A stretch of DNA of 64,000 nucleotides from Nocardia sp. BSTN01 (GCF_015354405.1 NZ_JADKYP010000026.1:23994-87993), one strand, 5' to 3'. Shown: positions 27,517 through 63,808, counted from the stretch's first letter. Translations and numbers: made by a program. Notes: generated from the letters alone by a model not told the origin.

Positions 27517-28938
27517 TCAGCCTCGTCGCAACAGGGTCTGCGCGAATCGACGACCGAGCGCGGAGGTCGGCGGCTGGACAAGCCCCAGCGTGTCGGGCTT
27601 CAGAGGTTTTGTGAGAACCGGCTTGAGGTGTGTGAAAGTTCGCCACGAGTGGATGCCGTGATAAGCGCCCATCCCGCTGGCACCGACACCTCCGAACGGT
27701 AGCCCGGTCGAGCCGGCGTGGATGATCCCCGCGTTGTGAACGATCGCGCCCGAGGAGGTGTTGCGTTCGAACAGATCGCGAGTCTCGGCCGAGGAACTGA
27801 AGACATAGAGGGCAAGCGGCTTGTCCCAGGCGTTGACGACCCGGACCGCTTCGTGGGCGGAGGCGACGGGCACGATGGGGAGAATCGGGCCGAAGATCTC
27901 TTCCCGTAACACCGGCACCGCCGCATCCGGCCCGACAGAGGCGGCACCGTCGGGCACCGTGACAACGGTCGGGGCGATGTAGCGCTCGCCGCGGTCGTGC
28001 TGCCCGCCCACATTCACCTGCACTCCGTCCAGCAAACCGATGAGCCGGTCGAATTGGCGCTCATTGATGATGCGGCCGTACTCGGCACCCACGCGCGGGT
28101 CACTGCCATACAGCTCGCCGATCGCCTTGTCGAGCGCGGCAACCAGGGCCGGGGCCCGCTCGGGGGTGGTCATGACATAGTCCGGGGCGATGCACGTCTG
28201 ACCGGCATTGGTGAATTTCGCCCACGCCAACCGGCGTGCGACATCGGCCAGATTCGCGTCGTCATCGAACCAGACCGGAGACTTGCCGCCCAGTTCGAGG
28301 GTGACGGGCGTGAGATGTTCTGCGGCCGCGCGCATCACGATACGTCCCACAACCCCACCACCGGTGAAGACGATGTGATCGAACTTGCAGGTCAGGAGCT
28401 CCGTTGTCTCGGGGACACCGCCCTGCACGACACGAACGGCCCCGTCGGGGAAGTACTGCGGAACGAGGCGCGCGATCAATGCCGATGTGGCAGGGGCGAG
28501 TTCGCTCGGCTTGACCACTGCGGTGTTACCGGCCGCCAGCGCACCGGTCAGCGGGTCCAGCAGCAACTGCATGGGGTAGTTCCACGGAGCGATGATCAGC
28601 ACCACTCCCAGCGGCTCACGAACGAGTCGAGCGCGGGCCGGAGACAGCGCCGGAGAGATCGGGCCGCGGCTGGGCCGAAGCCAGCGGCGGAGGTGGCGAA
28701 GCGCATGGTTGATCTCGCCGATCGTCACGCTGATCTCGGTGATCTGCGCTTCCGCCGGACTCTTGTGGAGATCCGTCCAGAGTGCGGCCTCGAATGCCGA
28801 CTCGTTCTCGGTGAGCATGGCACGGAGCGCACGAAGGTGTCTGATGCGGCTGTCGACCGGCTTCGTCGCGCCCGAGTCGAACAGGATCCGCGAGGCGGCG
28901 ACGATGTCAGCGATCGAAGCAGATGTCGAAGTGTCCAT
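27517..28938 (-). CDS. Aldehyde dehydrogenase, ALDH3-like (473 aa)
   Basis: The start at 28938 reads [17 protein letters not shown]. The family landmarks are [21 protein letters not shown], the NAD-region [19 protein letters not shown] with the general base, and [11 protein letters not shown] with the catalytic cysteine. The C-terminus [15 protein letters not shown] is typical of class 3 fatty/aromatic aldehyde dehydrogenases. It should oxidise a hydrophobic aldehyde to the acid with NAD(P). A dyad at 28955-28980 lies just before the gene. The longer ATG at 28989 would overlap that dyad and is less likely. Confidence 0.94.
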
Positions 28939-28954
28939 GAGTCGAGCGTACTCC

Positions 28955-28980
28955 AAAACGAAACGGAATAGTTTCGTTTC
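28955..28980. promoter_or_regulatory. AACGAAAC dyad operator before the aldehyde dehydrogenase
   Basis: AACGAAAC (28957-28964) and GTTTCGTT (28971-28978) are perfect inverted arms with a 6-bp spacer; one more pair extends the dyad to 28955-28980. It lies 17-40 bp before the start codon, which fits a repressor site. Confidence 0.65.
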
Positions 28981-29095
28981 CTTCGTCACGTGGATGCCGG
29001 CATTGGCGCAGACCCCCTACGTACGACGCGGAGCGGATCACCGGTCCACAGCGGAAGCCTCAGAAGCCGGCTCGGCAGATCCGTAAACTATGTGC

Positions 29096-29111
29096 AACGT
29101 TTCCACCTAGA
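29096..29111. promoter_or_regulatory. Island palindrome copy (weaker), AACTATGTGCAACGTT
   Basis: It matches AACYATRTAYATRGTT at 13 of 16 positions and lies in the divergent region before the amidohydrolase at 29325. It is the weakest of the five copies. Confidence 0.4.
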
Positions 29112-29324
29112 TGCCCCGGTTGGCCCTACAGAGAAACGGCTTCACTAGCCATTTCTCCCGACAGAAGTAAAGTTTGTGGCGCCGAGGATGGACGTGTGGT
29201 CCAAATTATAGATATAGTTTTAGAAGGTTCGGCACGACTGTCCCCCAGATCGCGGGTGCTCACTCCCGAGCCGCAACGTATTCAGGCTGCCCGTCCGGGC
29301 AGCCGTCTCCTAGGAAGGACCACC

Positions 29325-30596
29325 ATGACGGCGACGTTGCCTGAAGGGGCTGCCACCGACATCGACGATCTCCGGATCGTGGACTGCGACGCCCACCTGA
29401 CCGAGCCTGCCGATCTCTGGACCGCGCGGGTGCCCGAATCGCTGCGTGGACGGGTGCCGGTGCAGGAGACACGCAACGGTGTGACGGCTTGGTACGTCGA
29501 CGGTGAGATGTGGGCGAGTATCGGCGGCAACACCATCGGTCACGGCCCCAAGAAGGTGCTGGGAACCAACACCCTGCAGCCGTTCGAGGAGATCCATCAC
29601 TCCGCCTGGTCTACCAAGGAGCGGCTCGATCTCCTCGACGACCAGGGCGTATGGGCGCAGGTGCTGTACCCGAACGGCGTCGGATTCTCCTCCAACCACA
29701 TCTTCGCGGTCCCCGACCTGGAACAGCGAACGATGATCCTGCAGACCTACAACGACTTCCTGATCGAGGTGCAGCACGAATCCGGAGGGCGGCTGCTGCC
29801 ACAGGGAATGCTCCCGATCTGGGACATGGACCTGACGGTGAAGGAGATGACCCGCCTGATCGACAAGGGAATGACGGGCTTCACCCTGTCGGACAAGCCC
29901 GAGCTGCTCGACCTGCCGGAACTGCCCGAACCGTATTTCGAGCCGATGTGGGACATCTTCAACTCCACCGAGACGGTCGCCAATTTCCACATCGGCGCCG
30001 GCGGCACCCGAGAGGAGTCGGAGGGCATCCGCCGCACCATGCGCGAGCAGCGGGAGGGAAAGACTCCGGTGTCGACCGGGGGCAAGAGGATCGCACCGCC
30101 GAGCTGGGGCAGCTTCGGCCCGCAGCGCTGGCTCGCGGTGATGGCTACGCAGATGTACATGAGCAATGTCCGTATCGTGACGAATCTGTGCATGAGCAAT
30201 CTGTTCGACCGCTACCCGAAGCTCAAGATCGTGTCCGCCGAAAGCGGCATCGGTTGGGTGCCGTTCCTGCTGGAGGCACTGGAGTATCAGCTCGATGAGA
30301 TGGTCACCACCCCGGCCGAGAAATCGCTGCAGCAGCGACGGCCCACGGAGTACTTCCGTGACCACCTGTACGTCATGTTCTGGTTCGAGTCCTCCGCGCC
30401 GCAGAAACTGGTCGACGACATCGGCGTGAACAACATCCTGGTGGAAACCGACATCCCGCATCCGACGTGTCTGTATCCGAATGCCAAGGGGCACTTCGCC
30501 CGCGTGCTGTCGGGTCTCGACCCGGCCAGCCGCCGCCGCATTCTGCAGGACAACGCCGCCGAGCTGTACGGCATCGATATTCCGGCCGTCGTCTGA
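29325..30596 (+). CDS. Amidohydrolase-2 family metal-dependent hydrolase/decarboxylase (423 aa)
   Basis: The N-terminal metal motif is VDCDAHLTEPADLW, and WVPFLLEALEYQLDEM plus VETDIPHPTCLYP give the remaining TIM-barrel ligands and the catalytic Asp of the ACMSD/amidohydrolase-2 family. Members hydrolyse C-C or C-N bonds or decarboxylate aromatic and enol acids, and many act in ring-cleavage pathways. AGGAAGG lies before the ATG. A paralog is at 52902-54083. A perfect terminator hairpin follows. It may open or decarboxylate a ring produced by the oxygenases of this island. Confidence 0.88.
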   Translation: MTATLPEGAATDIDDLRIVDCDAHLTEPADLWTARVPESLRGRVPVQETRNGVTAWYVDGEMWASIGGNTIGHGPKKVLGTNTLQPFEEIHHSAWSTKERLDLLDDQGVWAQVLYPNGVGFSSNHIFAVPDLEQRTMILQTYNDFLIEVQHESGGRLLPQGMLPIWDMDLTVKEMTRLIDKGMTGFTLSDKPELLDLPELPEPYFEPMWDIFNSTETVANFHIGAGGTREESEGIRRTMREQREGKTPVSTGGKRIAPPSWGSFGPQRWLAVMATQMYMSNVRIVTNLCMSNLFDRYPKLKIVSAESGIGWVPFLLEALEYQLDEMVTTPAEKSLQQRRPTEYFRDHLYVMFWFESSAPQKLVDDIGVNNILVETDIPHPTCLYPNAKGHFARVLSGLDPASRRRILQDNAAELYGIDIPAVV

Positions 30597-30659: not shown

Positions 30660-30675
30660 TCTCGTCGGAGCGGAT

Positions 30676-31491
30676 TCAGATCCGGGTGCTGCCGTGGTCC
30701 ACGGTGAATTGCGCCGCGGTGATGGTGCGCGAATCGTCGCTCGCCAGGAACAGCACCGACTTCGCGATGTCCTCCGCGTCGGTGGCGGGCGGATCGAACA
30801 GGATCTGTCCCATCGCGTTCTGATAGGACGGATTGTCGGCGAAGACCTTCTCGCCCTCGGGTCCCAGCGCGCCCATCGGCGTCGACACCGCCCACGGGTG
30901 CAGGGAATTGACCCGGATCCGATACGGCGCCAGCTCCTGCGCGGCGGATTTGACCAGCCCGACGACGCCGTGTTTGGCGGCCGAGTAATGTGCCTGCCCC
31001 GGAAGCGATTTGATGCCGGCCGAGGAACTGGTCGCGATGATCGAGCCACCGTTTCCGGCCTCGATCATATACGGAACCGCGGCCCGCAAGGTGTGGAAGA
31101 CCCCGGTGAGGTTGATGTCGATCATGCTGTGCCAGCGCTCGATGTCCATCTCCCAGAACCGGCCCCACGTCACGATTCCGGCATTCGCCACCACGACGTC
31201 CAGGCGGCCGCCCAACTCGGCGACACCCGACGTCACCACGTCCGACACCGCCTTCAGGTCCCGCACGTCGACCTGGGCCGAGACGATCCGGCGATCGGCC
31301 TTCTCGACCAGGCGTACCGTTTCGGCCAGATCGTCCGGTGTTGCCGCCGGGTAATCGGTGCGGGTCGGTGAGGCGCAGACGTCGATCGCGATGATGTCAG
31401 CGCCTTCTTCGGCGAGGAGCACGGCCTCGGCCCGGCCCTGTCCGCGGGCCGCGCCGGTGACGAACGCGACCCGGCCATCCAGTTTTCCCAT
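30676..31491 (-). CDS. Mycofactocin-coupled type SDR (271 aa)
   Basis: RVAFVTGAARGQGRAEAVL, the long insert after GADIIAIDVCASP and the ATPDDLAETVRLVEKADRR stretch are the pattern of the mycofactocin-dependent SDR family (TIGR03971), which holds NAD tightly and passes electrons to mycofactocin. The catalytic residues are in TSSSAGIKS and HYSAAKHG. One of the typical motifs, NSLHPWAVSTPM, follows. AGGAAGGAAAACAC precedes the ATG. Two relatives occur at 57410 and 62981. Mycofactocin genes themselves are not in the window. Confidence 0.92.
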   Translation of the reverse strand: MGKLDGRVAFVTGAARGQGRAEAVLLAEEGADIIAIDVCASPTRTDYPAATPDDLAETVRLVEKADRRIVSAQVDVRDLKAVSDVVTSGVAELGGRLDVVVANAGIVTWGRFWEMDIERWHSMIDINLTGVFHTLRAAVPYMIEAGNGGSIIATSSSAGIKSLPGQAHYSAAKHGVVGLVKSAAQELAPYRIRVNSLHPWAVSTPMGALGPEGEKVFADNPSYQNAMGQILFDPPATDAEDIAKSVLFLASDDSRTITAAQFTVDHGSTRI

Positions 31492-31608: not shown

Positions 31609-32805
31609 TCAGCCGGTCGCCGACGCTGCGACGCGTTCCGCCGCGTCGGCGCCGAGGATCTCGGACGAATGCTCCCCCCGGTCCGGGGCTCGCCGGATCG
31701 CCGGGAGTGGCGGTGTCACCCGCACCGGCAGGGCAGGGACGGCCGGACCGTCGTTCTCGTCCGCCAGCCACCGCGCCCGTTCCACGAAGTGCGGATCACC
31801 GAGCAGATCGGCGCCCTCGTTGACGGGTGTCACCGGGATGTTGTGCTCGGTGGCCGCCCGAATCCAGTACGCGGCGGGCCGGCTCGCGAAGATTTCCGCG
31901 ATCTCGGCGCGCAGATCGTCGCGGCCGCGCAGCCAGTCCGCCTCTCGATCCGCGGGAAAGGCATCCGATAGGTCCGGCCGGCCCACCAATGCGGCGAAAC
32001 GCTCCAGGAATTTGGGTTCCATCGCCTGGAACAGGACGTGCCGCCCGTCGGCGGTGCGGTAGTACTGCACGAGAACCGAATCCTCGAACAGATCGCCCGC
32101 CATATCTCCTCCGGCGGCGTCGTTCGGTGCGGCCTGCTCGTCGTGGCGCCAGCGCACCACATCGGCCGCCCGCGCATAGGTGGCCGCATCCGCCTGGGCG
32201 ATATCCAGGTAGGCCGGCCGGCCGGTCGCCCGCGCGTGCAGGACCGCGGAAACCGTGGCCAGCGCGGCGTGCAGCGGAGCCGTGAGGACACCGGCCGGCA
32301 TCTGGTTCGGCTGCGGAATGCGAGGGCGACCCCGCGCGTCCGCAGCCGGGGGCAGCGCTCCGGCATACGCGTCGAATGCGGGGCCGTGACTCGGAAACGA
32401 CCGGTACGGTCCGGTGTCGCCGAACCCCGACAGGCAGGTGAAGACGAGCGCGGGGTTCACCCGCAACAAGTCCTCGTAGCCCAGACCGTGCCGGGCCAGA
32501 TATCCCGGCCGGCGCCCTTCCACCACCACCTCGGCGTCGGCGACCAGATCGCGGAAGCGGGCCTGTCCGGCCTCGGTGTCCAGTTCGATCACGACGCTGC
32601 GCTTGCCCCGATTCCACAGCTGATGCAGGTCCGAGGTGCGCTGTCCGGCTCGCCGCCCGATCGAGCGCACATAATCGCCGCTGCCGGACTCGACCTTGAT
32701 CACGTCGGCGCCCAGTTCCGCCAGATGCCCGCCCAGGGCGCTCGGCGACAGGATCGCCACCTCGATCACCCGGACCCCGGCGAGCAGGCCACCCTCAGCC
32801 GACAT
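31609..32805 (-). CDS. CaiB/BaiF family III CoA-transferase, single domain (398 aa)
   Basis: The start at 32805 (MSAEGGLLAG) overlaps the stop of the fused CoA-transferase by 11 bases. Family features are GVRVIEVAILSPSALGGHLAELGADVIKVE, WNRGKRSVVIEL, and YLDIAQADAATYARA, where the aspartate of ADA sits at the usual nucleophile position. It should move CoA between carboxylic acids through a mixed anhydride/thioester chemistry. Coupling to the 806-residue gene suggests a shared complex or sequential steps. Confidence 0.9.
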   Translation of the reverse strand: MSAEGGLLAGVRVIEVAILSPSALGGHLAELGADVIKVESGSGDYVRSIGRRAGQRTSDLHQLWNRGKRSVVIELDTEAGQARFRDLVADAEVVVEGRRPGYLARHGLGYEDLLRVNPALVFTCLSGFGDTGPYRSFPSHGPAFDAYAGALPPAADARGRPRIPQPNQMPAGVLTAPLHAALATVSAVLHARATGRPAYLDIAQADAATYARAADVVRWRHDEQAAPNDAAGGDMAGDLFEDSVLVQYYRTADGRHVLFQAMEPKFLERFAALVGRPDLSDAFPADREADWLRGRDDLRAEIAEIFASRPAAYWIRAATEHNIPVTPVNEGADLLGDPHFVERARWLADENDGPAVPALPVRVTPPLPAIRRAPDRGEHSSEILGADAAERVAASATG

Positions 32806-35215
32806 GACTGACCGCCGCATCCCGTGCGGCGACCGGCCGCGCGCCGGCGCCGATGCCGTCGGGATGCCTGCGCTCCGGCGGCGCCGACCGCGCGATACCC
32901 TCCCGTTCCAGTCGCTCGATCTCGGCATCGGTATAGCCGAGCGAGCGCAACACCGGCTCCGTGTGTTCACCGAGTTCACACGGCAGTCCCTCGACCGGTT
33001 CGGCGCCGGCCATGCGTACGCGCGGCTTCAATCGCCAATACGTTCCGAACGCGGGGTGTTCGGCACTGTCCACCAAACCCGCGTGGACCAGGAAATGCTC
33101 GAGCGTATGGTCGGCGGCCGACACGATCGGCACCCGCTGCGCCACCGCCGCCGCCTCCCACTCCGCGGCGGTCCGGCTGACGAAGACGTCTTCGAGCAAC
33201 CATTGCAGGACCCGATCGTGGGCGGCACGATCGTCTCGATCGGCGAAGCGCTCGTCATCGAGCCATTCCGGTTTGCCCAGCAGGTTCACCAGGCGCGGCC
33301 ACTCGTCATCACCCGAGGCGAGCATGACCCAGCCCTCGGCACATTGATAGAGCCGGTCGAGGGCAGAGAAACCGGTCTGCTCGGTGGTCAGCTCCAGCCG
33401 CGCCGGGCGCCCCTCGTACGACTCCATCCGCGCCGAATGCACCCACCCCGCGCTGACCAGCATGCTGGTCTCGAGGTACTGGCCGATGCCGTGCCGGTCG
33501 CGCGCATAGAGCCCCAGCGCCAGTGCGACACCGGTCGCCAGACCCGAGCACGGATCGGCGTAGGAGTCGTTCACCGGAGGGTTTCCCTTCCCGGCCTGCG
33601 CGATACCGCCGCCGCAGAGGGCGTTCGGCGTCGAATGGAATGCCGCGCGGTGCGCTTCGGGGCCCTTGCTGCCGTAGGAGGCGCCGTAGAGATAGACGAG
33701 GTCCGGCCGAATCGCGCGCGCCTGCTCGTAACCGAAGCCGAGTTTCTCCGGCACCCCGGGACGGAAGTTGTGGATCAGGGCGTCCGACTGCTCGATCAGC
33801 CGATGCAATACCTGCTTGCCTTCCGGCGATTTGAGATCGAGGGCGACGGATTCCTTGCCGTTCCCGATGTGGACGAATTCCAGCCCACTGCTGCGGAAGG
33901 GGTCACCGTCCAGCGGCTCCACCTTGATGACCCGGGCACCGAGTTCGGCGAGCAGAGTCGGTCCGAGGGGCGCCGCCAGGAAGGACGCGATCTCGAGAAT
34001 CGTGTACCCCTGCAGTGGCAGGCCGGCCGATTCGCCGGCACCCGCGGACGTGTCGGGCCGGGTCGCGGGCTCCCAGCCGGACCACGGCGCCGCGGAGTCC
34101 AGCGCGGGCGCCGAGGAAACGACCCGCCCCGGCGTCCGATCCGCGGTGACCAGCGGGCCGAGTTGAAGGATGGGCCCCACCTCCGGATCATCGACCGTGA
34201 CCACGCGTTCGTTGGCTACCAGCTGGGGATGGCGCAGGAATTCCTCCTCGGTCAGGAACGGATCCGCCCCGATATCCAGGGTGCGGAACATGTCCATCCA
34301 TTCCTCCTGGGTCCGCTCCAGCATCCGGTCGCGGACCCGCGCCTCCCACTCCTGCGCGTCCTCGAGACTCTGGACGCCGAGAGGGAGCCCGGCCCAGCGC
34401 GGCTGCTCCAGTTCATCCCCGAGCCCGATCGCATTCATCCAGTTCCGGTACAGGCGCGGTTGGCGGCAGCACATCTGGATATGGCGACCGTCGGCGGTTT
34501 CGACCGTCAGGAAGCACAGCCGGATACCGCGCAGCAGCAGGACCGAGTCGGCGCCGCGGGCCGCCACCGGAACCACCTCCTCACCACGGCGCTCGAAGGC
34601 CAGGCGCATGGTCGCCGCTGATATGCCGTCCAGCAGACTGGTGGACACCGACCGGCCTCGTCCGGTCCGCTCCCGCTGCAACAACGCCGCCACGATGGCC
34701 TGCACGGCCAGCATGGCCGCGCCGTAGGTGCTCGCGGGCGAGGCCAGATACAGCGGCCGGTCGAGGTCGCCGTGGGCTCCGGAGAGCAGATCGTTGCCCA
34801 TCAGCCGGCCGACCTTCGCGGTCACCATCTGTTCGCTGCGGCCGAAGTGTTCCAATTCGGCGGCTTCGCCGAACCCGGTGATCCCGCAGTGGACCAGGCG
34901 CGGATTGCGTGCGGTCGTCAACTCGGGAGTCAGGCCGTATCCGGTGGCCTCGGGCCCCAGCGATTCGACCAGAACATCGGCATCGGCCACCAGAGCGTGC
35001 AGCTCGGCACGTCCCCCCTCCGTGGTGAGATCCAGGACGAGGCTGCGCTTACCCCGGTTCCAGAAGCGAAAGCCCTGCTGCCCGCGCGCGCTGTCGCCTC
35101 CTGGGGGCTCGACCTTGACCACGTCCGCCCCGAAGTCGGCGAGGACCGCGGCGGTTACGGACAACATCCCCTCGGTCAGGTCCACGACGCGGAGACCCTC
35201 GAACAGGCTGACCAT
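32795..35215 (-). CDS. Fused two-domain family III CoA-transferase (806 aa)
   Basis: Two complete CaiB/BaiF domains are joined. Domain 1 (about 1-380) begins LRVVDLTEGMLSVTAAVLAD and domain 2 (about 400-800) begins GYTILEIASFLAAPLGPTLL. In domain 1 the nucleophile region is VSTSLLDGISAAT, with Asp present. In domain 2 the matching stretch is YLETSMLVSAGWV, with no Asp at the aligned point. Interlocked dimers are usual in this family, so a fusion could form an internal dimer with one active site. AAGGAAGATC precedes the ATG. The promoter region upstream carries the island palindrome. Confidence 0.9.
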   Translation of the reverse strand: MVSLFEGLRVVDLTEGMLSVTAAVLADFGADVVKVEPPGGDSARGQQGFRFWNRGKRSLVLDLTTEGGRAELHALVADADVLVESLGPEATGYGLTPELTTARNPRLVHCGITGFGEAAELEHFGRSEQMVTAKVGRLMGNDLLSGAHGDLDRPLYLASPASTYGAAMLAVQAIVAALLQRERTGRGRSVSTSLLDGISAATMRLAFERRGEEVVPVAARGADSVLLLRGIRLCFLTVETADGRHIQMCCRQPRLYRNWMNAIGLGDELEQPRWAGLPLGVQSLEDAQEWEARVRDRMLERTQEEWMDMFRTLDIGADPFLTEEEFLRHPQLVANERVVTVDDPEVGPILQLGPLVTADRTPGRVVSSAPALDSAAPWSGWEPATRPDTSAGAGESAGLPLQGYTILEIASFLAAPLGPTLLAELGARVIKVEPLDGDPFRSSGLEFVHIGNGKESVALDLKSPEGKQVLHRLIEQSDALIHNFRPGVPEKLGFGYEQARAIRPDLVYLYGASYGSKGPEAHRAAFHSTPNALCGGGIAQAGKGNPPVNDSYADPCSGLATGVALALGLYARDRHGIGQYLETSMLVSAGWVHSARMESYEGRPARLELTTEQTGFSALDRLYQCAEGWVMLASGDDEWPRLVNLLGKPEWLDDERFADRDDRAAHDRVLQWLLEDVFVSRTAAEWEAAAVAQRVPIVSAADHTLEHFLVHAGLVDSAEHPAFGTYWRLKPRVRMAGAEPVEGLPCELGEHTEPVLRSLGYTDAEIERLEREGIARSAPPERRHPDGIGAGARPVAARDAAVSHVG

Positions 35216-44792: not shown

Positions 44793-44955
44793 CGCGAACA
44801 CACTGAGTGTAGGACCGAACTCGAGTGCGGTCAATCACAGTCGCGCGACCCGTGGCTTCCGGGGCTGCAGACGTCGCATGTTGGATTCATTACTTGACAA
44901 TGAATTCAATAGCGCCGACGATCCGGACTTTGGGATCACAGGAAAGGCAGGACCG

Positions 44956-51380: not shown

Positions 51381-51527
51381 GCCCTGCGGCAGGCCACCGA
51401 CACCGAGATTCTTCCGACACCCACGGTGAACGGACACGTCGCGCGGATCCTCGGGAAGCTCGGCTTCGGCTCAAGGGTCCGGATCGCACCCCGGGTGACC
51501 GCATCGCGCAGCCAGCCGCGCGGGTGA
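51381..51527 (+). pseudogene. Remnant of a LuxR-type helix-turn-helix
   Basis: In the frame starting at 51381 the DNA reads ALRQATDTEILPTPTVNGHV then ARILGKLGFGSRVRIA and a stop at 51525. This matches the end of a LuxR/NarL HTH (PATVNGHVARILAKLGLRSRVQIA), but no receiver or full HTH lies upstream and the first HTH helix is degraded. The piece overlaps, on the other strand, the C-terminus of the 51471-51857 gene. Confidence 0.5.
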
Positions 51528-55676: not shown

Positions 55677-55692
55677 TCGCCGACAGCACAAC

Positions 55693-55731
55693 GACCGGCC
55701 TGCGGCATGTTCAACGGGCCGCAGGCCGGTC
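55693..55731. terminator. Bidirectional hairpin terminator
   Basis: GACCGGCCTGCGGC (55693-55706) pairs perfectly with GCCGCAGGCCGGTC (55718-55731). It separates the SnoaL gene from the convergent dehydrogenase. Confidence 0.85.
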
Positions 55732-55748
55732 CTCGTTCGATCGCGGTG

Positions 55749-56645
55749 TTATCGCGGATGTCCGTGTTGCTTTTCCAGGCGCTCCAATAGAGATCGGTTG
55801 AGCGATCCGATCAGGCCCAGATCGAGTTCGAGTTGCTCGGCGAGCTCGTCGACAACGGTGAGATCCTTGTAGAGGAATCGTCCTCCGTACTCCCAGAAAC
55901 GCTCCTCGGTCACCGCTGTCCCGACCAAATGCATTGCCGTGCTGCCGCCCGTGCAATAGGTGAGGCCACGCAGCAGCCGATAGGAATCCAAACCGAGCTC
56001 TCGCCCGAGTCGCGCGACATCGGAAACCAGCTGCAGGTGGGCACCGAGGACCGCGTTGTTGAGCAATTTCATACACATACCGGAGCCGAGCGGACCCATA
56101 TAGTGCACTGGATACGCATACGTCTCCAGCAGGGGCATACATCGCGCGATGTCGTCGGGGTCACCGCCCACCATCAGGCTCATCTCACCGAGGGCGGTGT
56201 ACGCCGGTGCCCACGCACCACCCGCATCGACCACTCGGACCCCATGGACGGCTGCCCGTGCGCCGATATCTCGCATTGTCCTGGGACTACCCGTGGTGTG
56301 GATGATGAGGATCGCGTCGGGATCCATGGATTCCACGAGCCCGTCGTCAATGGCGACCTGGCGCGTCTGTTCGTCGGAATAGACGTAACTGATGACGAAG
56401 TCCCGGCCGCGGGCCAGGGCTCGGACATCGGGTTCGACGAGGACGCCCATGTCCTCCAGCTCGGACTTCACCTCGTCTCGCCGCACATAGGCGGCCACAT
56501 CGAACCCCCGCGCCTTCAGTCGCTCGACCACCGGCCGACCCATGGCGCCGACGCCGACGATTCCGATACGCCCCTCAGCAAATGTGTCGGGGAATTCGGC
56601 TGCCTCACTATCACCGTTCTGTGGTCCGTTGATATTTGTAGTCAT
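55749..56645 (-). CDS. Beta-hydroxyacid-dehydrogenase-like NAD(P) enzyme (298 aa)
   Basis: Rossmann motif RIGIVGVGAMGRPVVERL, then HTTGSPRTMRDIG, DAGGAWAPAYTALGEMSLMVGG and the catalytic-lysine region SGMCMKLLNNAVLGAHLQ, as in 3-hydroxyisobutyrate dehydrogenases and related imine/keto reductases. The usual DAPVSGG is changed to DAGGAWAP, so substrate choice is probably different. The start region lacks a good ribosome site. It precedes the SnoaL gene at 56675-57172 in orientation, 29 bases downstream of it. Confidence 0.87.
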   Translation of the reverse strand: MTTNINGPQNGDSEAAEFPDTFAEGRIGIVGVGAMGRPVVERLKARGFDVAAYVRRDEVKSELEDMGVLVEPDVRALARGRDFVISYVYSDEQTRQVAIDDGLVESMDPDAILIIHTTGSPRTMRDIGARAAVHGVRVVDAGGAWAPAYTALGEMSLMVGGDPDDIARCMPLLETYAYPVHYMGPLGSGMCMKLLNNAVLGAHLQLVSDVARLGRELGLDSYRLLRGLTYCTGGSTAMHLVGTAVTEERFWEYGGRFLYKDLTVVDELAEQLELDLGLIGSLNRSLLERLEKQHGHPR

Positions 56646-56674
56646 CGCAAATAATCGTTTCGGTCGCGGGGGGA

Positions 56675-57172
56675 TTAGGTCAGGTCAGCAGGCAACGGAA
56701 CGACCGGCGCATCGTATCGCTCGGTCAGTGCCGCCGATCCCGACGACGGGTCGAAATCGCCGTAACCTTCCCGGAGGTACTGGCGCGTCAGTTTGTGGTC
56801 ATCGATAAGCCAGCCGCGGTCGGTCTTCACATAACGCTGGTGGTAATGGCCATACCCGTGCACCCAACGCTTGACCCCGTCCTCTTCCCACAACAGAAGG
56901 TCTTCCATCGGCACGATGCCGCGGGCGGTCAGAGAACCTGTGATCTCGATTTCGGGGAGATGTAGCTGATGGATCGTGCGCACACCTTCCAGAACCTTGC
57001 GCACATGCTCGACGACAGCACGGCCGCCCTTGACGCCGAGATGGTGACCGACGACATCGTCCGTGTACACCTCGACCAATTTTTCCCAGTGCTTTCCATC
57101 GATCAGGCGTGTTCGCCGCGACAACAGTTGACGAATTTCCTCGATCGCGATCAGCTTTTCCAGAGGGTCCAT
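56675..57172 (-). CDS. SnoaL-like (NTF2-fold) protein (165 aa)
   Basis: N-terminus LEKLIAIEEIRQLLSRRTRLIDGKHW, then YTDDVVGHHLGVKGGRAVV, IHQLHLPEIEITG and YHQRYVKTDRGWLIDDHKLTR give the SnoaL_4 pattern. AAGGACG lies before the ATG. It is divergent from the mycofactocin-type SDR at 57410 across a region with two island-type half-palindromes, and co-directional with the dehydrogenase. Probably an isomerase, dehydratase or hydrolase of the pathway. Confidence 0.88.
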   Translation of the reverse strand: MDPLEKLIAIEEIRQLLSRRTRLIDGKHWEKLVEVYTDDVVGHHLGVKGGRAVVEHVRKVLEGVRTIHQLHLPEIEITGSLTARGIVPMEDLLLWEEDGVKRWVHGYGHYHQRYVKTDRGWLIDDHKLTRQYLREGYGDFDPSSGSAALTERYDAPVVPLPADLT

Positions 57173-57294: not shown

Positions 57295-57380
57295 AACCAT
57301 ACACATGTTCTGCGAACAAGGATGGTGTTATCCATAGCATTTCGCACTTCTTTCTCGATTCAGATGATTAACTATGTACA
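57295..57380. promoter_or_regulatory. Two island-palindrome-like sites in divergent region
   Basis: 57295-57309 reads AACCATACACATGTT, a version one base shorter, and 57370-57380 reads AACTATGTACA, an intact left half. The first lies 123 bp before the SnoaL start and the second 30 bp before the SDR start. Confidence 0.45.
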
Positions 57381-57409
57381 GGAAATATTGCTATACCGAA
57401 GGAGTGCTC

Positions 57410-58246
57410 ATGGGACGCGTCGAAGGCAAGGTCGCCTTCATCACCGGTGCCGCCCGGGGACAGGGCCGCAGTCATGCTGTCCGCCTCGCCGGCGAGGGGG
57501 CCGACATCATCGCCGTGGATATCTGCGAGCAGATTCCAGGCGTGCCGTATGCGATGTCCACGCCGGAGGACCTCGAGCAGACCGTCCACGAGGTGGAGAA
57601 ACTGGGTCGACGAATCGTCGCCAGGGTCGCTGACGTCCGCGACCCCGGACAGCTCGAGAACGCACTGAGGGACGGGCTCGCCGAGTTCGGCAGGCTCGAC
57701 ATCGTCTGTGCGAATGCCGGCATCTTCGGCCCTCTGGACCCATTGCCCGATATCGCCGCGCGTGTCGCCAATTTCCGACTGATCGTGGACGTCAACCTGA
57801 CGGGCGCCTACAGCACCGTCGAAGTCTGCCGCCAGCCGCTCATCGACACGGGCGGCGGCTCGGTGATTCTCACCAGCTCACTGGCGGGCTTGCGCCGACT
57901 GGGCGCGGGCGGCGGCTACGCCGAGTCGAAACACGGGATGGTCGGCCTGATGCGCACGCTGGCCGGAGAACTCGCCCCATACGGGGTCCGCGTGAACAGT
58001 ATTCACCCCACAAATGTCGACACCCCGATGATCATGAACGACACGATCTCGCGCGCGTTCCGACCCGATCTCGAAAACCCGACCAAGGAGGAGGTCGAGC
58101 AAGCCCTGAGCTTCCTCAACCTCATACCGGTGCCATTCGTCGACTCCGGCGATGTCAGCAATGCTGTCCTGTGGCTCGCTTCCGACGAGAGTCGCTACAT
58201 CACGGGAGTGACCCTGCCCGTCGACGCCGGTGGGGCCATCAAGTAG
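57410..58246 (+). CDS. Mycofactocin-coupled type SDR (278 aa)
   Basis: GAAGGAGTGCTC precedes the ATG. KVAFITGAARGQGRSHAVR, GADIIAVDICEQIPGVPYAM and the following STPEDLEQTVHEVEKLGRR match the mycofactocin-dependent SDR family. Catalytic motifs are LTSSLAGLR and GYAESKHG, and NSIHPTNVDTPMIMND and SRYITGVTLPVDAG close the protein. Such enzymes oxidise secondary alcohols with non-exchangeable NAD. It has a relative at 62981-63808 with about the same layout. Confidence 0.93.
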   Translation: MGRVEGKVAFITGAARGQGRSHAVRLAGEGADIIAVDICEQIPGVPYAMSTPEDLEQTVHEVEKLGRRIVARVADVRDPGQLENALRDGLAEFGRLDIVCANAGIFGPLDPLPDIAARVANFRLIVDVNLTGAYSTVEVCRQPLIDTGGGSVILTSSLAGLRRLGAGGGYAESKHGMVGLMRTLAGELAPYGVRVNSIHPTNVDTPMIMNDTISRAFRPDLENPTKEEVEQALSFLNLIPVPFVDSGDVSNAVLWLASDESRYITGVTLPVDAGGAIK

Positions 58247-58388: not shown

Positions 58389-59753
58389 TCAGCGAGCGTG
58401 CTCGGGATCCGCCTTCGATGTCACGACCGGAGAAACGACCTCGGCCGCTGCGCGCACGCGCAGACTGGCGACGAGTCCGATGGCCCCCCACAGCACGACC
58501 CAGGCGAAGAACCAGTTCTCCTGGCCCGCTTCACGCAGGCCCAGCGCCATGACGTCAGCAGTCCCGCCGATCAGGGCGATGGCGAGCGCGTATGGGAGGC
58601 TGATGCCAAGTGTCCGAACCGCGGTGGGAAACGCCGACGCGGTGACCGTCGCCATGACGGACAGCATCATGGCGATGGCAACGATGCCCAACGTCAGCAG
58701 TGCCAGCGACAGACCGTAGGAGCCGGTTCCGAACCCCCGAAAGATCGGAACCACAGCAACGGATGAGAGCACGAAACCGGCGACCAGCATGGGCCGTCTG
58801 CCGACGCGGTCCGACAGCAGGCCGAACACCGGCAACGCGAACAACATCACGACCTGACCGATCAAACGCAGCTGCGTCGCTTCCGGACGACTCATTCCCG
58901 CGGTGTTGACCAGATAGGTGGTGCTGTAGGACGCGATCGTCTGGAAGATCAGCGTCGATGACGCCCCGAGCGCGAAGACAGTGAGCAAGGATCTGCGATA
59001 CCGCCACAGGACCCGGAAGCTCCCCCTGTCGTCCGCCCTGATCCCCGGGTTGTCGGCCTGCGCCTGACGGACCCGGCGCTCTTCCGTCCGGAAGGCTTCG
59101 GTTTCCGACATCGTGCGGCGGACCGCGAATACCGCGAGCGCTACCAACCCCATGAAGGTGAAGGCGAGCCGCCATCCCCATCGCTCGATAGCCCCTTCAG
59201 GGAAGACCGCCTGACAAACGATCAGAACGATGATCGACAGCAGGCCGCCTACCGTCACACCGATGTACTGGAGGCTGGACGCGAAGCCCCGACGGCTTTC
59301 CGGCGCCGACTCGATGATGTACGCGGCCGCCGCACCGTGTTCGCCGCCGACGCTGAGGCCCTGCAGGATGCGCGCGAGAAGAAGTATGACCGCGCCGGTG
59401 AGGCCCGCCGTTCGGTAGTTCGGCGCCGCGGCGATCGCGAACGAGGACACCGCCATCAATGTCACCGAGAAAGTGAGGCTGAGCCGGCGGCCGCGTTTGT
59501 CGGCGAGCTTGCCGAACACGATGCTGCCGAGCGGCCGGGCGATCTGCCCGACCGCGAATATCCCGGCGCCGTACAGCAATTGGGCCGTCTGGTTTTCGAC
59601 GGGGAAGAACTGTGTGGTGAAGTACAGCGCGAAGGCGCTCCACATGGCGAAGTCGGCATACTCGACGGCGTTGCCCGCGACGCCGCTGATGACGTCGCGA
59701 CGCCATCTTCGCGGCCGGGCGCCGGACGACTGCGCTGTCGTGGTCGCGGTCAT
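58389..59753 (-). CDS. MHS-type MFS transporter (454 aa)
   Basis: Twelve hydrophobic segments with the metabolite:proton symporter signatures: VISGVAGNAVEYADFAMW in helix one, RPLGSIVFGKLADKRGRR between helices two and three, and LQGLSVGGEHGAAAAYI. Members import organic acids such as alpha-ketoglutarate, shikimate or aromatic acids. AGGAAGTGAATC precedes the ATG. It is divergent from the P450-transporter pair across a region with the island palindrome and promoter. Confidence 0.93.
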   Translation of the reverse strand: MTATTTAQSSGARPRRWRRDVISGVAGNAVEYADFAMWSAFALYFTTQFFPVENQTAQLLYGAGIFAVGQIARPLGSIVFGKLADKRGRRLSLTFSVTLMAVSSFAIAAAPNYRTAGLTGAVILLLARILQGLSVGGEHGAAAAYIIESAPESRRGFASSLQYIGVTVGGLLSIIVLIVCQAVFPEGAIERWGWRLAFTFMGLVALAVFAVRRTMSETEAFRTEERRVRQAQADNPGIRADDRGSFRVLWRYRRSLLTVFALGASSTLIFQTIASYSTTYLVNTAGMSRPEATQLRLIGQVVMLFALPVFGLLSDRVGRRPMLVAGFVLSSVAVVPIFRGFGTGSYGLSLALLTLGIVAIAMMLSVMATVTASAFPTAVRTLGISLPYALAIALIGGTADVMALGLREAGQENWFFAWVVLWGAIGLVASLRVRAAAEVVSPVVTSKADPEHAR

Positions 59754-60263: not shown

Positions 60264-61490
60264 ATGACGACAGCGACCATTCCGAGTCACGTACCCGACT
60301 ATCTGGTGCGCGACATCGACGTCTACAACATCCCCGGGATGAACAACGGTGTCACGACCGATGACATCCATCAGCTGTGGAAGAACGTTCAGGACACCTG
60401 CCCACCAGTATTCTGGACACCCCACTACGGCGGGCACTGGGTCGTCACGCGATTCGAGGATCTACGCCGCGTCGCATCCGAATACGAGAACTTCTCGAAC
60501 GCCGAGATGTTCGTCCCGCAGGGCATTGTCCCGATGCTGACACCGACCCAGCTCGACCCGCCGGAGCACAGCGCCTACCGACGACTCCTGACACCCGCCT
60601 TCACCCCCGGCCGCCTGCGCGCCATCACCGAAGAGGCACGGGCCGCCGTCGTGGCCGCGATCGAGGGTGTGTACCACCGGGGCGGGTGCGAGTTCGTGAC
60701 GGAAATCTCCGGTGCGATGCCGACCGCGGCGTTCCTCACCCTGGTCGACCTGCCGGTCCAGGATGGCGAACGTCTGCGAAGGGCCTTCGAGCGGGCGCCG
60801 GCGATGGACAACCCGGAAGAGTCACGCGCCGCGTGGGCGGAAATATCCGCTTATGTGCAACAACAGATCGACGAGCGCATCGCCAGGCCGCGCGAGGACT
60901 TCATCAGCTCGCTGATCCGCAGTGAGGTCGACGGTCGCCGGCTGCGGACCGATGAGGTATTCAGCATGTGCCTGCTGCTGCTCTCCGCAAGCCTGGACAC
61001 CACCGCCTCGCTGACCACATTCGTCGCTCGTTTCCTGGCCGAGCATCCCGCACATCGCGCGGAGCTGATCGACAATCCGGAATTCCTGAACCACGCGGTC
61101 GAGGAGTTCTGCCGGCGGTTCGGGCTCACCCAGACCGCACGGCTGGTGCGCCACGATGTGGAACTGAACGGCGCACCCCTGCGCGAAGGCGACATCGCGC
61201 TCGCGATCTTCGCGGTCGGCGGCCTCGACGAGACCGTCAACGCGAACCCGATGGTGGTCGATTTCGCACGGCTGGACCACCATTACGTGACCTTCGGCCA
61301 CGGCCCCCACTCCTGCGTGGGAATGCGTCTGGCGAAGCTGGAGCTGAAGATCTTCCTCGAAGAATGGCTGAAGCGGATTCCCGATTTCCGAGTCGCCGAC
61401 GGCGCGGAGGTGCGAGCGTCCACCGGTGTCCTGTCCCGTCTGAATCAACTCGATCTGCAGTGGGCCACAACAGGATTCGACAACAGATGA
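60264..61490 (+). CDS. Cytochrome P450 (408 aa)
   Basis: AGAAGGAGCGGTGTCG precedes the ATG at 60264. The I-helix reads LLLLSASLDTTASL, with Ser-Leu where Ala-Gly is usual, the K-helix area is HAVEEFCRRFG, and the heme loop is FGHGPHSCVGMRLAK with the ligand at about Cys351. The sequence before the heme loop lacks the common NRDP motif (NANPMVVDF instead). It should hydroxylate an alicyclic or terpenoid molecule. The stop overlaps the transporter ATG as ATGA. Confidence 0.94.
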   Translation: MTTATIPSHVPDYLVRDIDVYNIPGMNNGVTTDDIHQLWKNVQDTCPPVFWTPHYGGHWVVTRFEDLRRVASEYENFSNAEMFVPQGIVPMLTPTQLDPPEHSAYRRLLTPAFTPGRLRAITEEARAAVVAAIEGVYHRGGCEFVTEISGAMPTAAFLTLVDLPVQDGERLRRAFERAPAMDNPEESRAAWAEISAYVQQQIDERIARPREDFISSLIRSEVDGRRLRTDEVFSMCLLLLSASLDTTASLTTFVARFLAEHPAHRAELIDNPEFLNHAVEEFCRRFGLTQTARLVRHDVELNGAPLREGDIALAIFAVGGLDETVNANPMVVDFARLDHHYVTFGHGPHSCVGMRLAKLELKIFLEEWLKRIPDFRVADGAEVRASTGVLSRLNQLDLQWATTGFDNR

Positions 61491-62893
61491 AGGATTTCAC
61501 CGGACGCGTGGCCACCGCCCCGGCTCGCCGAGCACTGGTCGCCGCGTCGGCCGGCACGATCATCGAGTGGTTCGACTACGCTCTCTATGGCGCCCTCGCC
61601 GCGATCTTGGCGGGCGATCTTTTCTTTCCGCGCTTCTCCCCCGGTCTCGCCACTCTGGCCGCGTTCGGCGCCTATGGAGTTGCCTTCTTCGTCCGTCCGC
61701 TCGGCGGTTTGGTCCTGGGCCGGATCGGTGACCGGCGCGGGCGCAAACCGGCCTTGATGATCAGTCTCGTTCTGATGGGCGGCTGCACCGTCGCGGTCGC
61801 GCTCGTGCCCACCTACGCCATGATCGGGGTATGCGCCCCCATCCTGCTCGTCCTGCTCCGGGTGGGCCAGGGCTTCGGGGCCGGCGCCGAGGTCGCCGGC
61901 GCGATCGCTCTGGTCGCCGAGTACGCGCCGCTCGAGCGGCGCGGGCTCTACACGGCGATCTTGCAGAGCACCTCGCTCATCGGTGTTCTGTTGTCGAGCC
62001 TGGCCTTCCTCTCCGTTTCCTCGCTGCCCCACGCGGCCATGCAGTCGTGGGGGTGGCGGGTGCCGTTCCTGTCGGCCGGTCTGCTGTTCGGGGTCGCGCT
62101 CTATCTGCGCACCCGCCTCGAGGAATCCCCCGAATACCGCACGGCTACGGCCCGGGCCGAAAACCGCGCCGCGCGTGAGCATCGGCCACTCGCCCTGCTT
62201 TTCGCGACGATGAAACGGCGGCTGTTCCTCGCGTTCATGTTGATCAACGCCTGGAATGTGCTGGCCGCGGTGCTGGCCGTCTTCATTGCCAGCTACTTGC
62301 GGAATACCGTTCGGATGCCGGCGACCTACGCGTTCGCGATCCTCTCGGTCGGCACAGTCGTGGGCGTAGTGTCCACCATCTTCTTCGGTGCTGTCTGCGA
62401 CAAGTACGGGTTCCGCCGGATCTGGATGACTTCGCTGGTAGTGACCATCCCGGGTGTTTTCCTCTTGTTTCTCGGCCTGCGAACAGGCGTCTTCTGGCTC
62501 GCGGCGGGCAGCATGGCACTGGCATATGCGATTGCCTACGGTCCGGGCGCGGGTGCGTTCCCCGGCGTTCTGGCCAACCTCTTCCCGACCGAGGTCCGCT
62601 ATTCGGGTATCGCGGCCGTTCGCGAGGTAAGCGCGGCGACGGTTGCCGGGACCGTCCCCTTCGTCGCCACCGCCCTCGTCCTCGCCGGGGGCGGTACACC
62701 ATGGCTGGTCGCGGGCTATGTCGCTGTCTGGGCGTTGCTGGGCCTGATCTGCTACACATTGCTGGGCAACGAGTCCGAGACACCGGAAAGCCCGAACCTG
62801 TTCGTGGAACATCCCAACGCGCCGGAGCCCACGATGCCCGAGACGACGCGCCGACCGGCCACAGAGCCGGTCCAGCCGGCTGTGAAACAGTAA
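61487..62893 (+). CDS. MHS-type MFS transporter coupled to P450 (468 aa)
   Basis: The ATG overlaps the P450 stop. Helix one is AASAGTIIEWFDYALYGALAA, the MHS signature, then RPLGGLVLGRIGDRRGRKP and RVGQGFGAGAEVAGAIALVAE. About twelve helices are followed by a 40-residue hydrophilic tail. With a P450 in the same transcript it probably imports the P450 substrate or a related acid. The second MHS transporter in the island (58389) is divergent from this unit. Confidence 0.93.
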   Translation: MKDFTGRVATAPARRALVAASAGTIIEWFDYALYGALAAILAGDLFFPRFSPGLATLAAFGAYGVAFFVRPLGGLVLGRIGDRRGRKPALMISLVLMGGCTVAVALVPTYAMIGVCAPILLVLLRVGQGFGAGAEVAGAIALVAEYAPLERRGLYTAILQSTSLIGVLLSSLAFLSVSSLPHAAMQSWGWRVPFLSAGLLFGVALYLRTRLEESPEYRTATARAENRAAREHRPLALLFATMKRRLFLAFMLINAWNVLAAVLAVFIASYLRNTVRMPATYAFAILSVGTVVGVVSTIFFGAVCDKYGFRRIWMTSLVVTIPGVFLLFLGLRTGVFWLAAGSMALAYAIAYGPGAGAFPGVLANLFPTEVRYSGIAAVREVSAATVAGTVPFVATALVLAGGGTPWLVAGYVAVWALLGLICYTLLGNESETPESPNLFVEHPNAPEPTMPETTRRPATEPVQPAVKQ

Positions 62894-62927
62894 TTTCTTC
62901 GCTTCGGCTACGGCTCGTTCGGTCCGA

Positions 62928-62959
62928 GGCCGTAGGTGCCGCCGGGCAGCCATACGGCC
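62928..62959. terminator. Weak hairpin between convergent genes
   Basis: GGCCGTA (62928-62934) and TACGGCC (62953-62959) form a short stem with an inner GCC/GGC pairing. It is weaker than the other terminators of the island. Confidence 0.35.
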
Positions 62960-62980
62960 CCCGTGCGGCCGCCGGACGAT

Positions 62981-63808
62981 TTATTTGATGTTCGTTCCCG
63001 CATCAACCGGCAGTGCCACGCCCGTGATGTAGCGTGCTTCGTCCGAAACGAGGAACAGTACTGCGTTCGACACGTCGACCGACTCGACCCAGGGCACATC
63101 GAGGACCGCCAAACCACGTGCGGCCTGGGTGAAATCGGCCCGGTCGGGTCCGGTGAGATCAGGCCGGAAGAGCTGGTACATCGCCTCGTTCTGGACCATC
63201 GGCGTATCCACCGTTCCCGGTAGCACACAGTTCACCCGGATGGAGTCACCGGCCAGTTCCAATGCCAGAGTCCGCATGAGCCCGATTACGCCGTGCTTGG
63301 ACGAAACGTAGTGACCGATATTCGGACTCGCGTGCACACCCGCGCCGGAACTCGTGATCACGACAGCCCCACCGCCCGCGGCCCGTAGGTGCGGGATTGC
63401 GGCCTTGACCGTGAGCCACGCGCCGGTGAGGTTGACATCGAGCATCTCCCGCCACGCCTTCTCGGGCAGAGTGTCGAGGCGGCCGACGCCGAAGATGCCG
63501 GCATTGGCGACAACCGTGTCGACTCGACCGAATCGTGCCACCCCTTCGGCAAGCGCCTGCTCGAGTGCCTCATAGTCGCGAACGTCGGCTTCTGTCGCGA
63601 CGATGTTCCGACCGAGAGCTTCCACCGCCTGCACCGTCTCGGCCAGGTCGTCCGGTGTCGCCCCGGCATAAGGCACAGTCGGCAATGATGCCGCCAAGTC
63701 CAGTGCGACGATATCGGCGCCCTCCTGCGCGAGCCGGATCGCATGACTGCGTCCCTGCCCACGCGCGGCACCGGTTACGAAGGCGACTTTGCCTTCCATT
63801 CTTCCCAT
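62981..63808 (-). CDS. Mycofactocin-coupled type SDR (275 aa)
   Basis: KVAFVTGAARGQGRSHAIR, GADIVALDLAASLPTVPYAG and ATPDDLAETVQAVEALGRN again mark the mycofactocin-dependent SDR family. The catalytic motifs are ITSSGAGVHA and HYVSSKHG, then NCVLPGTVDTPMVQNEAM and ARYITGVALPVDAG. GAGGGGACGGT precedes the ATG. It is the closest relative of the 57410 enzyme and convergent with the transporter. A conserved 30-bp element lies 53 bp upstream. Confidence 0.93.
   Translation of the reverse strand: MGRMEGKVAFVTGAARGQGRSHAIRLAQEGADIVALDLAASLPTVPYAGATPDDLAETVQAVEALGRNIVATEADVRDYEALEQALAEGVARFGRVDTVVANAGIFGVGRLDTLPEKAWREMLDVNLTGAWLTVKAAIPHLRAAGGGAVVITSSGAGVHASPNIGHYVSSKHGVIGLMRTLALELAGDSIRVNCVLPGTVDTPMVQNEAMYQLFRPDLTGPDRADFTQAARGLAVLDVPWVESVDVSNAVLFLVSDEARYITGVALPVDAGTNIK

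Follow-up and report, generated by a model that had tools for sequence, protein, structure and literature searches.

Gene content of the interval

The DNA analysed here is a 64,000-nucleotide (nt) stretch from Nocardia sp. BSTN01 (GCF_015354405.1, NZ_JADKYP010000026.1:23994-87993), termed the window. It forms the end of contig C126 of a 7.79-Mb genome that is in 206 contigs. A codon-based script predicts 55 genes across the window, and 31 of these (g25–g55) fill positions 27517–63808 exactly. This interval, termed the island, is considered as a possible part of a coenzyme A (CoA)-based catabolic pathway.

The island proteins were classed by NCBIfam and Pfam profile searches (Pfam tables at E 0.001). 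A sequence-only reading of this DNA had listed about 30 genes for oxygenases, ring or ester hydrolases, CoA enzymes, SnoaL proteins, uptake systems and regulators, and all these classes are found among the 31 genes. The oxygenases are an HsaA-like protein (g33, with flavin reductase g38), a type I Baeyer-Villiger monooxygenase (BVMO; g34) and a cytochrome P450 (g53). The CoA enzymes are three class III CoA-transferases (g28, g29 and g32) and an SCP2-thiolase (g41) with a DUF35 protein (g40). Also present are four SnoaL proteins (g30, g47, g48 and g50), two importers of the metabolite/H+ symporter (MHS) type (g52 and g54), and regulators of the GntR/FCD (g42) and IclR (g43) families. The hydrolases are g31, the GDSL protein g36 and the PF04199 protein g39, but the two PF04909 proteins g26 and g46, which could be counted in the same class, may be oxygenases rather than ring hydrolases.

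Conservation and rarity of the gene set

Relatives of g29 (806 residues) were located by exact peptide patterns, so that relatives without those patterns would be missed. Three loci were found, in Gordonia sp. ABSL11-1, Streptomyces sp. CME 23 and a Sphingomonas metagenome-assembled genome (MAG), and a plasmid search with g29 added a plasmid of Rhodococcus sp. USK10. A reciprocal best match was defined as at least 40% identity over 60% of the length. In the foreign clusters of Streptomyces, Gordonia and Rhodococcus, 24 of the 31 island genes have such a partner, compared with 4 of the 24 flanking genes (g01, g02, g03 and g13); 14 of the 24 matched island genes have partners in two or more organisms. 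One 49.7-kb Streptomyces contig carries partners of 15 island genes, and the Gordonia partners lie on a 45.6-kb contig and at a further locus, L013. Streptomyces and Gordonia both retain g34, g35 and g36 as a row.

The g29 protein is rare. At E ≤ 1e-150 it is found in 1 of 149 genus genomes, namely its own. A threshold of 1e-120 gives its own genome alone among 401 of the family and two genomes among 396 of the phylum, the additional copy having 38% identity and one internal stop; the three genome samples overlap. The g46 protein has 88% identity to its Streptomyces partner and g26 has 83% to those of Gordonia and Rhodococcus; horizontal transfer would be the natural reading. GC content gives no information on transfer, being 0.666 in the island and 0.658 in the flank. 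Plasmid searches with single proteins (g29, g41, g32, C174|22, g46 and g33) gave no second near-complete copy among the matches listed, and g41 had no plasmid match at 1e-50. These comparisons point to a rare and probably mobile set of degradation genes common to four genera.

The sequence-only reading had put forward a coherent, undescribed ring-catabolic system. The conservation of the set in three other genera agrees with this, and no characterised match to the cluster was found in the profile libraries or the open-licence PMC literature searched. The boundaries of the "whole island" did not hold. Seven genes (g25, g37, g44, g48, g49, g50 and g55) have no reciprocal partner, though tblastn finds a 59% match to g37 at Gordonia L013; the matches of g55 in the foreign clusters are paralogous short-chain dehydrogenases/reductases (SDRs) only. 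Membership of g25 is doubtful; aldehyde dehydrogenases with 33 and 32% identity to it adjoin distant tandem CoA-transferases. Membership of g48–g50 is likewise doubtful, as these genes are without partners and, together with g55, have the lowest third-codon-position GC of the island (0.70–0.73). Beyond the interval, g01–g03 (2024–4387) probably belong to the pathway, since the trio matches a trio inside the Gordonia cluster. The features of the window are given in Table 1.

Table 1. Features of the window. Positions are counted from its first nucleotide and percentages are amino acid identities.
Feature	Position	Strand	Evidence
g01 P450, g02 SDR, g03 ABM protein	2024..4387	+	Pfam; reciprocal best matches 57, 73 and 41% to Gordonia trio
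g25 aldehyde dehydrogenase	27517..28938	-	PF00171; no reciprocal partner
g26 PF04909 protein, DitZ/PtmU3-like	29325..30596	+	83% in Gordonia and Rhodococcus
g27 mycofactocin-type SDR	30676..31491	-	TIGR03971 357 bits (cut-off 300); 77% in Rhodococcus
g28 class III CoA-transferase without catalytic Asp	31609..32805	-	PF02515; 59-68% in three clusters
g29 tandem class III CoA-transferase	32795..35215	-	PF02515 twice; 69-73% in three clusters
g30 SnoaL_2, paralogue of g47	35603..36508	+	PF12680; 61% to g47; 54% in Gordonia
g31 alpha/beta hydrolase	36574..37389	+	PF12697; 53-64% in three clusters
g32 second tandem class III CoA-transferase	37470..39767	-	PF02515 twice; 69 and 65%
g33 two-component flavin monooxygenase, HsaA/HpaH-like oxygenase	39840..41033	-	Best solved relative Rv3094c; 74, 71 and 49%
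g34 type I BVMO	41272..42810	-	Fingerprint FEGPLFHSSQWD; 81 and 73%
g35 SDR	42855..43631	-	PF13561; 77 and 73%
g36 GDSL hydrolase, proposed lactonase/esterase	43628..44641	-	PF14606; 69 and 57%
Single TGAATTCA palindrome upstream of g37	44901..44908		1 seen, 0.27 expected
g37 SDR	44956..45777	+	PF13561; 59% in Gordonia L013 (tblastn)
g38 flavin reductase, HsaB-like, presumed g33 partner	45818..46282	-	PF01613; 49% twice
g39 PF04199 "cyclase", metal-dependent hydrolase family	46371..47291	-	HNGTHMDALCH in sequence; 66, 66 and 60%
g40 DUF35/ChsH2-type zinc-ribbon OB protein	47692..48105	+	PF01796, PF12172; CxxC-x10-CxxC
g41 SCP2-thiolase/aldolase family, YDGF motif	48102..49466	+	73% twice
g42 GntR/FCD regulator	49530..50264	+	PF07729, PF00392; 77, 72 and 67%
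g43 IclR regulator	50293..51192	-	PF09339; 56% in Gordonia
g44 unknown, g45 DoxX	51471..52369	-	g45 43% in Rhodococcus; g44 without partner
g46 PF04909 protein, DitZ/PtmU3-like	52902..54083	-	88% in Streptomyces
g47 SnoaL_2	54292..55215	+	PF12680; 66 and 61%
g48 SnoaL_4, g49 3-hydroxyisobutyrate dehydrogenase-like, g50 SnoaL_4	55269..57172	+, -, -	No partners
g51 mycofactocin-type SDR	57374..58246	+	TIGR03971 374 bits (cut-off 300); 68% in Rhodococcus
g52 MHS-type metabolite/H+ symporter	58389..59753	-	TIGR00883 315 bits, under cut-off 443; 59% in Gordonia
g53 cytochrome P450	60264..61490	+	PF00067; haem-Cys motif; 53% in Rhodococcus
g54 MHS-type metabolite/H+ symporter	61487..62893	+	TIGR00883 333 bits, under cut-off 443; 61% in Gordonia
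g55 mycofactocin-type SDR	62981..63808	-	TIGR03971 392 bits (cut-off 300); no reciprocal partner

Outside the island, four genes at 6695–9230 form a block unrelated to it; domains of cytochrome oxidase subunits III and IV occur in this block, and two of its proteins have no Pfam match.

A second locus in the host genome

The Streptomyces contig also carries 21 genes without a close counterpart in the window, and these have their best match (42–79%) on the Gordonia contig. When the Streptomyces DNA was searched against the host genome, most of these 21 genes were found on another contig, C174, at positions 5453–24920. All 21 genes predicted in C174:5453–26200 have reciprocal partners on that one Streptomyces contig, with 52–87% identity. 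The shared set has a two-locus layout in the host genome and the interval in the window is incomplete. Four unrelated genes precede the C174 block, and adjacency of C126 and C174 therefore cannot be claimed.

Nineteen of the 21 C174 genes were profile-scanned, in one library each or two. They include two AMP-forming ligases, three acyl-CoA dehydrogenases, four crotonases, a thiolase, a pair with FAS1-type and MaoC-type dehydratase domains, SDR or epimerase-type proteins, an alcohol dehydrogenase, a CMD-family protein, a further CoA-transferase and an F420-type luciferase-like oxidoreductase.

Elsewhere in the host genome, C35:104249–106556 (L076) carries a further pair of acyl-CoA dehydrogenase and thiolase genes, whose products have 70 and 74% identity to pathway proteins of Streptomyces. 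A comparable submodule on a plasmid of Streptomyces sp. NBC_00080 adjoins an amidohydrolase, P450s and mycofactocin-type SDRs.

Operator candidates and regulators

Common operators had been proposed for the island, and for the window this is rejected. A search of 58 intergenic regions of matching genes from four organisms (16 of them in the window) gave no 6- to 8-base word above the top of 10 shuffles. The sequence TTGAATTCAA, with two or fewer mismatches, occurs in the window 3 times vs 5.7 expected. The palindrome TGAATTCA occurs there once, no more than chance (Table 1).

TGAATTCA has 6 copies in the leading 40 kb of C174, 7 on the Streptomyces contig and 5 on the Gordonia contig, mostly in intergenic regions. 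Compared with shuffles of 20-kb stretches, the counts are, in the same order, 3 vs 0.09 expected, 5 vs 0.01 and 4 vs 0.20. With two mismatches allowed, TTGAATTCAA occurs 4 times in the first 20 kb of C174 (1.7 expected, 16 of 200 shuffles), which is not striking, unlike the exact 8-base core. In three genera, two TTGAATTCAA copies lie 46–50 bp apart in the divergent promoter of C174|13, a crotonase gene, or of its orthologue, while the surrounding DNA has diverged. The palindrome is conserved at C174, and from this pattern TTGAATTCAA is a good operator candidate for that locus.

The regulator g42 has a counterpart in each of the three foreign organisms. The word search of the 58 intergenic regions yielded no operator for it, and C174|15, the presumed regulator of the C174 locus (GntR-like on visual inspection), shows no similarity to g42. 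An exact inverted repeat, CTAGCC-N4-GGCTAG, is present outside the island at 5198–5213, 11193–11208 and 13075–13090, near g05 (PucR-type), g11 (a major facilitator superfamily transporter) and g12, and is probably the operator of another regulon.

PF04909 proteins g26 and g46

Proteins of the PF04909 family are usually read as hydrolases or decarboxylases. The best PDB matches of g26 are DitZ (6e-29) and PtmU3 (4e-25), and those of g46 are the same two proteins (3e-44 and 5e-37). A Foldseek search with the g46 model also ranks PtmU3 and DitZ first, with 26% identity to both in the fold alignment. PtmU3 is reported to be a beta-hydroxylase with a diiron centre that acts on CoA-linked substrates in the biosynthesis of diterpenoids (PMC7782822). 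DitZ in the PDB is from Rhodococcus rhodochrous and is linked to diterpenoids by its name only.

The six metal ligands reported for AibH2 are Asp-x-His, His, Glu, Asp and His (PMC7782822, PMC10401708). All six positions are found in g46 (D17, H19, H218, E276, D344, H347) and in g26 (D22, H24, H222, E306, D376, H379), and they are kept in three foreign partners. Thus g26 and g46 plausibly work like PtmU3, yet on their sequences they are not filed as dinuclear oxygenases. In the Sphingomonas MAG, two adjoining PF04909-like genes (L015:6461–8996), one with the metal ligands and one without the DxH pair, recall the AibH2/AibH1 pair.

Other key enzymes

The fingerprint of type I BVMOs is FxGxxxHxxxW[P/D]. 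In g34 it is present as FEGPLFHSSQWD at residue 158, together with the nucleotide site GAGFAG (GxGxxG), and the best PDB matches are cyclohexanone monooxygenases. The conserved row of g34, an SDR and a GDSL hydrolase fits a conversion of ketone to lactone to hydroxy acid.

Aldolases of the Ltp2/Sal type have the motif Y-D-H/C-F/Y (PMC12329534). The YDGF of g41 aligns with YDHF of Ltp2; the base Tyr is kept and Gly stands in place of His/Cys. The adjoining DUF35 protein g40 has 66% identity in Streptomyces (reciprocal) and 59% in Gordonia (tblastn).

In both g29 and g32, the catalytic Asp of class III CoA-transferases (Asp169 of formyl-CoA transferase) is confined to the second half. The residue in the Asp column is Val in g28 and Thr in the first halves of both g29 and g32. 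The same second-half-only pattern is seen in Streptomyces for both proteins and in Rhodococcus for g29, and the single CoA-transferases g28 and C174|24 are both without the Asp. The proteins g29 and g32 may be fused pairs with one active and one structural half.

The SDRs g27, g51 and g55 exceed the TIGR03971 cut-off (Table 1), and the genome has a mycofactocin radical-SAM gene (TIGR03962, 654 bits). The predicted structure of g47 (predicted local distance difference test, pLDDT, 45) is too poor for use.

Proposed pathway

The preferred reading, to which we give roughly even odds (about 0.5), is that the island belongs to a CoA-based catabolic pathway gained by horizontal transfer, whose substrate would be an alicyclic carboxylic acid, probably of terpenoid type, or its precursor. 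The substrate and every step are inferred. The MHS symporters g52 and g54 would import the compound, and the P450s g53 and g01 with the mycofactocin-type SDRs g27, g51 and g55 would oxidise it to a ketone or acid. The two AMP-forming ligases of C174 would attach CoA, which the CoA-transferases g28, g29 and g32 may pass on. The DitZ/PtmU3-like proteins g26 and g46 would then hydroxylate a ring carbon beta to the thioester, and the thiolase-DUF35 pair g41/g40 could split the ring bond by a retro-aldol reaction that leaves a ketone, as Ltp2/ChsH2 does on the steroid side chain. In the following steps the BVMO g34 would convert the ring ketone to a lactone, the GDSL protein g36 would open the lactone and the SDR g35 would re-oxidise the alcohol. 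A further hydroxyl may be added by g33/g38; g39 would hydrolyse a cyclic intermediate, and the SnoaL proteins g30 and g47 may isomerise or dehydrate. The acyl-CoA dehydrogenases, MaoC-type pair, crotonases, SDRs and thiolase of C174 would complete beta-oxidation.

A more specific version can be put forward only tentatively. Here about 50 actinomycete genes would make up a complete and hitherto undescribed pathway, with a polycyclic terpenoid acid as its substrate. Two PtmU3/DitZ-like oxygenases of a new subgroup, marked by Thr at the position of the acidic seventh ligand, would beta-hydroxylate ring carbons of CoA thioesters, half-dead tandem CoA-transferases would shuttle these thioesters, and a thiolase-DUF35 retro-aldolase would open the rings without an aromatic dioxygenase.

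Several observations weigh against the proposed pathway. The acidic seventh residue beyond the six metal ligands, Asp in DitZ and Glu in PtmU3, is Thr in the island proteins (Thr349 in g46, Thr381 in g26). An acidic residue at this position (PtmU3 Glu313, AibH2 Asp342) is reported as a conserved feature of binuclear centres only (PMC7782822), and oxygenase chemistry of g26 and g46 is therefore not assured. With a pLDDT of 57, the model of g46 is weak and only backs the sequence result. Proteins like g46 are also commoner than g29: of 394 genomes from the class, 13 have one at E ≤ 1e-100 (its own included; the others have 43–52% identity). The MaoC-type pair of C174 could supply the beta-hydroxyl in place of g26 and g46. 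Among the solved relatives of g41, ordinary thiolases (2.6e-19 and 4.4e-18) outscore Ltp2 (1.3e-14), so that g41 could be a thiolase. The MHS importers suggest small polar acids, not hydrophobic resin acids. On the Rhodococcus plasmid, no reciprocal partner of g32, g34 or g41 is found within the 100 kb examined (the best g34 match has 37% identity), and the set is thus modular. Lastly, the palindrome is not enriched in the window and does not single it out, so that joint regulation of the island and the C174 locus cannot be claimed.

To our knowledge, little is mapped of how alicyclic terpenoid carbon is degraded, apart from the resin-acid dit genes. The gene set described here is well bounded, is present in four genera and has a recognisable operator candidate at one locus, which makes the pathway testable by growth and expression. 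PtmU3/DitZ-like proteins of the g26/g46 type also allow a check of the link between the acidic seventh ligand and the two-metal centre.

Alternative explanations

Members of the HsaA/HpaH family normally act on phenols. If the substrate were an aromatic, quinone or polyketide-like compound, g33/g38 would hydroxylate a phenol, and g39 or g26/g46 would open a cyclic diketone or decarboxylate. A weak match of g39 to isatin hydrolase (8e-5) is in line with this, as is the presence of decarboxylases and hydratases in PF04909 (PMC10811679). However, no ring-cleaving dioxygenase is seen in the island Pfam tables or among the 19 scanned C174 genes, and a BVMO with CoA-transferases better suits alicyclic acids; an aromatic-type substrate is unlikely. 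The sequence-only reading had suggested an alicyclic or polyketide-like substrate, and here its two halves part. The alicyclic or terpenoid half is plausible given the BVMO fingerprint, the PtmU3/DitZ-like proteins and the mycofactocin-type SDRs, whereas the polyketide-like half has behind it SnoaL names only. The same reading considered a non-steroid substrate more likely, and this is supported. A variant steroid or bile-acid pathway would apply the thiolase-DUF35 pair, the HsaA/HsaB-like proteins, the MaoC-type pair and the acyl-CoA dehydrogenases to ring fragments or the side chain of a sterol. The gene set does follow a FadE/MaoC/Ltp2-type logic, g38 is HsaB-like (159.7 bits, cut-off 230), and the C174 thiolase matches a steroid thiolase model, though below the cut-off (355 vs 515 bits). 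Against this, g33 scores 134 bits vs an HsaA cut-off of 450, while three genes above that cut-off sit on other contigs (C136, C130 and C144). The host genome may therefore hold several separate steroid clusters. No KstD-, KshA- or HsaC-type model is among the matches listed for the island genes, as had been claimed, and the Pfam tables of g25–g55 contain no KshA-type Rieske oxygenase or HsaC-type extradiol dioxygenase; g48 (SnoaL_4) gives a weak match to a dioxygenase small-subunit model (20.8 bits, cut-off 230). The canonical 9,10-seco steroid pathway is rejected because the island has no HsaA above cut-off and no KshA/HsaC-type match, and a variant of it is distinctly unlikely.

It is also conceivable, but very unlikely, that several independent catabolic operons adjoin by chance and do not form one pathway. 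The set is split over two contigs in Gordonia and in the host genome, the Rhodococcus plasmid stretch carries only part of it, and submodules like that of C174 occur on C35 and on the Streptomyces sp. NBC_00080 plasmid. Yet a single Streptomyces contig unites partners of all 21 C174 genes with those of 15 island genes, and the row g34-g35-g36 is kept in two genera. The lowest probability goes to a biosynthetic cluster that employs catabolic chemistry, comparable to platensimycin biosynthesis with PtmU3, which is itself a biosynthetic enzyme (PMC7782822). The Pfam tables of the 55 window genes show no terpene cyclase, ketosynthase or condensation domain (the KR-domain matches are SDRs), while importers and a beta-oxidation set are present, and this explanation is extremely unlikely.

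Comparison with known systems

Pathways for alicyclic ketones and monoterpenes (cyclohexanone; limonene/carveol of Rhodococcus) combine a type I BVMO with a lactone hydrolase. They appear to resemble the island in the BVMO g34 beside the hydrolase g36 and the SDR g35, and in the mycofactocin-type SDRs. The set described here is far larger, however, and includes CoA-transferases and PtmU3-like proteins.

The steroid aldolases Ltp2-ChsH2 and Sal-Shy share with g41/g40 the SCP2-thiolase family, the DUF35 neighbour and the base Tyr. They differ in having YDHF or YDCY in place of YDGF; the similarity is weak (E 1e-14) and g41 is not surrounded by steroid genes. DitZ and PtmU3 are the best sequence relatives of g26 and g46 and, with AibH2, have the six ligand positions in common with them; the differences are the low identity to g46 in the fold alignment and the replacement of the acidic residue by Thr.

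The dit clusters of Pseudomonas and Paraburkholderia are described in PMC13063091 as large, possibly mobile clusters for abietane diterpenoid acids that include a P450, a dehydrogenase and the sterol-carrier-like DitF. Compared by this description only, the island is likewise large and possibly mobile, with a P450 and a dehydrogenase. The dit pathway needs the ring-hydroxylating dioxygenase DitA and has the ring-cleavage dioxygenase DitC (PMC13063091), whereas neither type is found in the island Pfam tables or the 19 scanned genes of C174. A 5-hydroxylated resin acid has been seen in P. abietaniphila, the enzyme being given there as unknown (PMC13063091). C5 of a resin acid would lie beta to the carboxyl.

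An alicyclic toolkit of SAR202 includes CoA-transferases, SDRs and type II BVMOs (PMC5395668); g34, in contrast, is of type I. Closer in layout is a stretch of plasmid pJCM13574 of Mycolicibacterium madagascariense, where two tandem-length CoA-transferases, an amidohydrolase, a thiolase, an OB-fold protein, an NTF2 protein, acyl-CoA dehydrogenases and a cyclase-family protein are annotated by family name. A smaller version is present on pISP0 of Sphingomonas sp. MM-1. Both share the tandem CoA-transferase and the thiolase with an OB-fold protein, and the M. madagascariense stretch also shares the amidohydrolase, NTF2 and cyclase families with the island, although the proteins of both plasmids are only 26–45% identical to those of the host genome. 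The island may belong to a wider group of degradation clusters built in this CoA-based manner.

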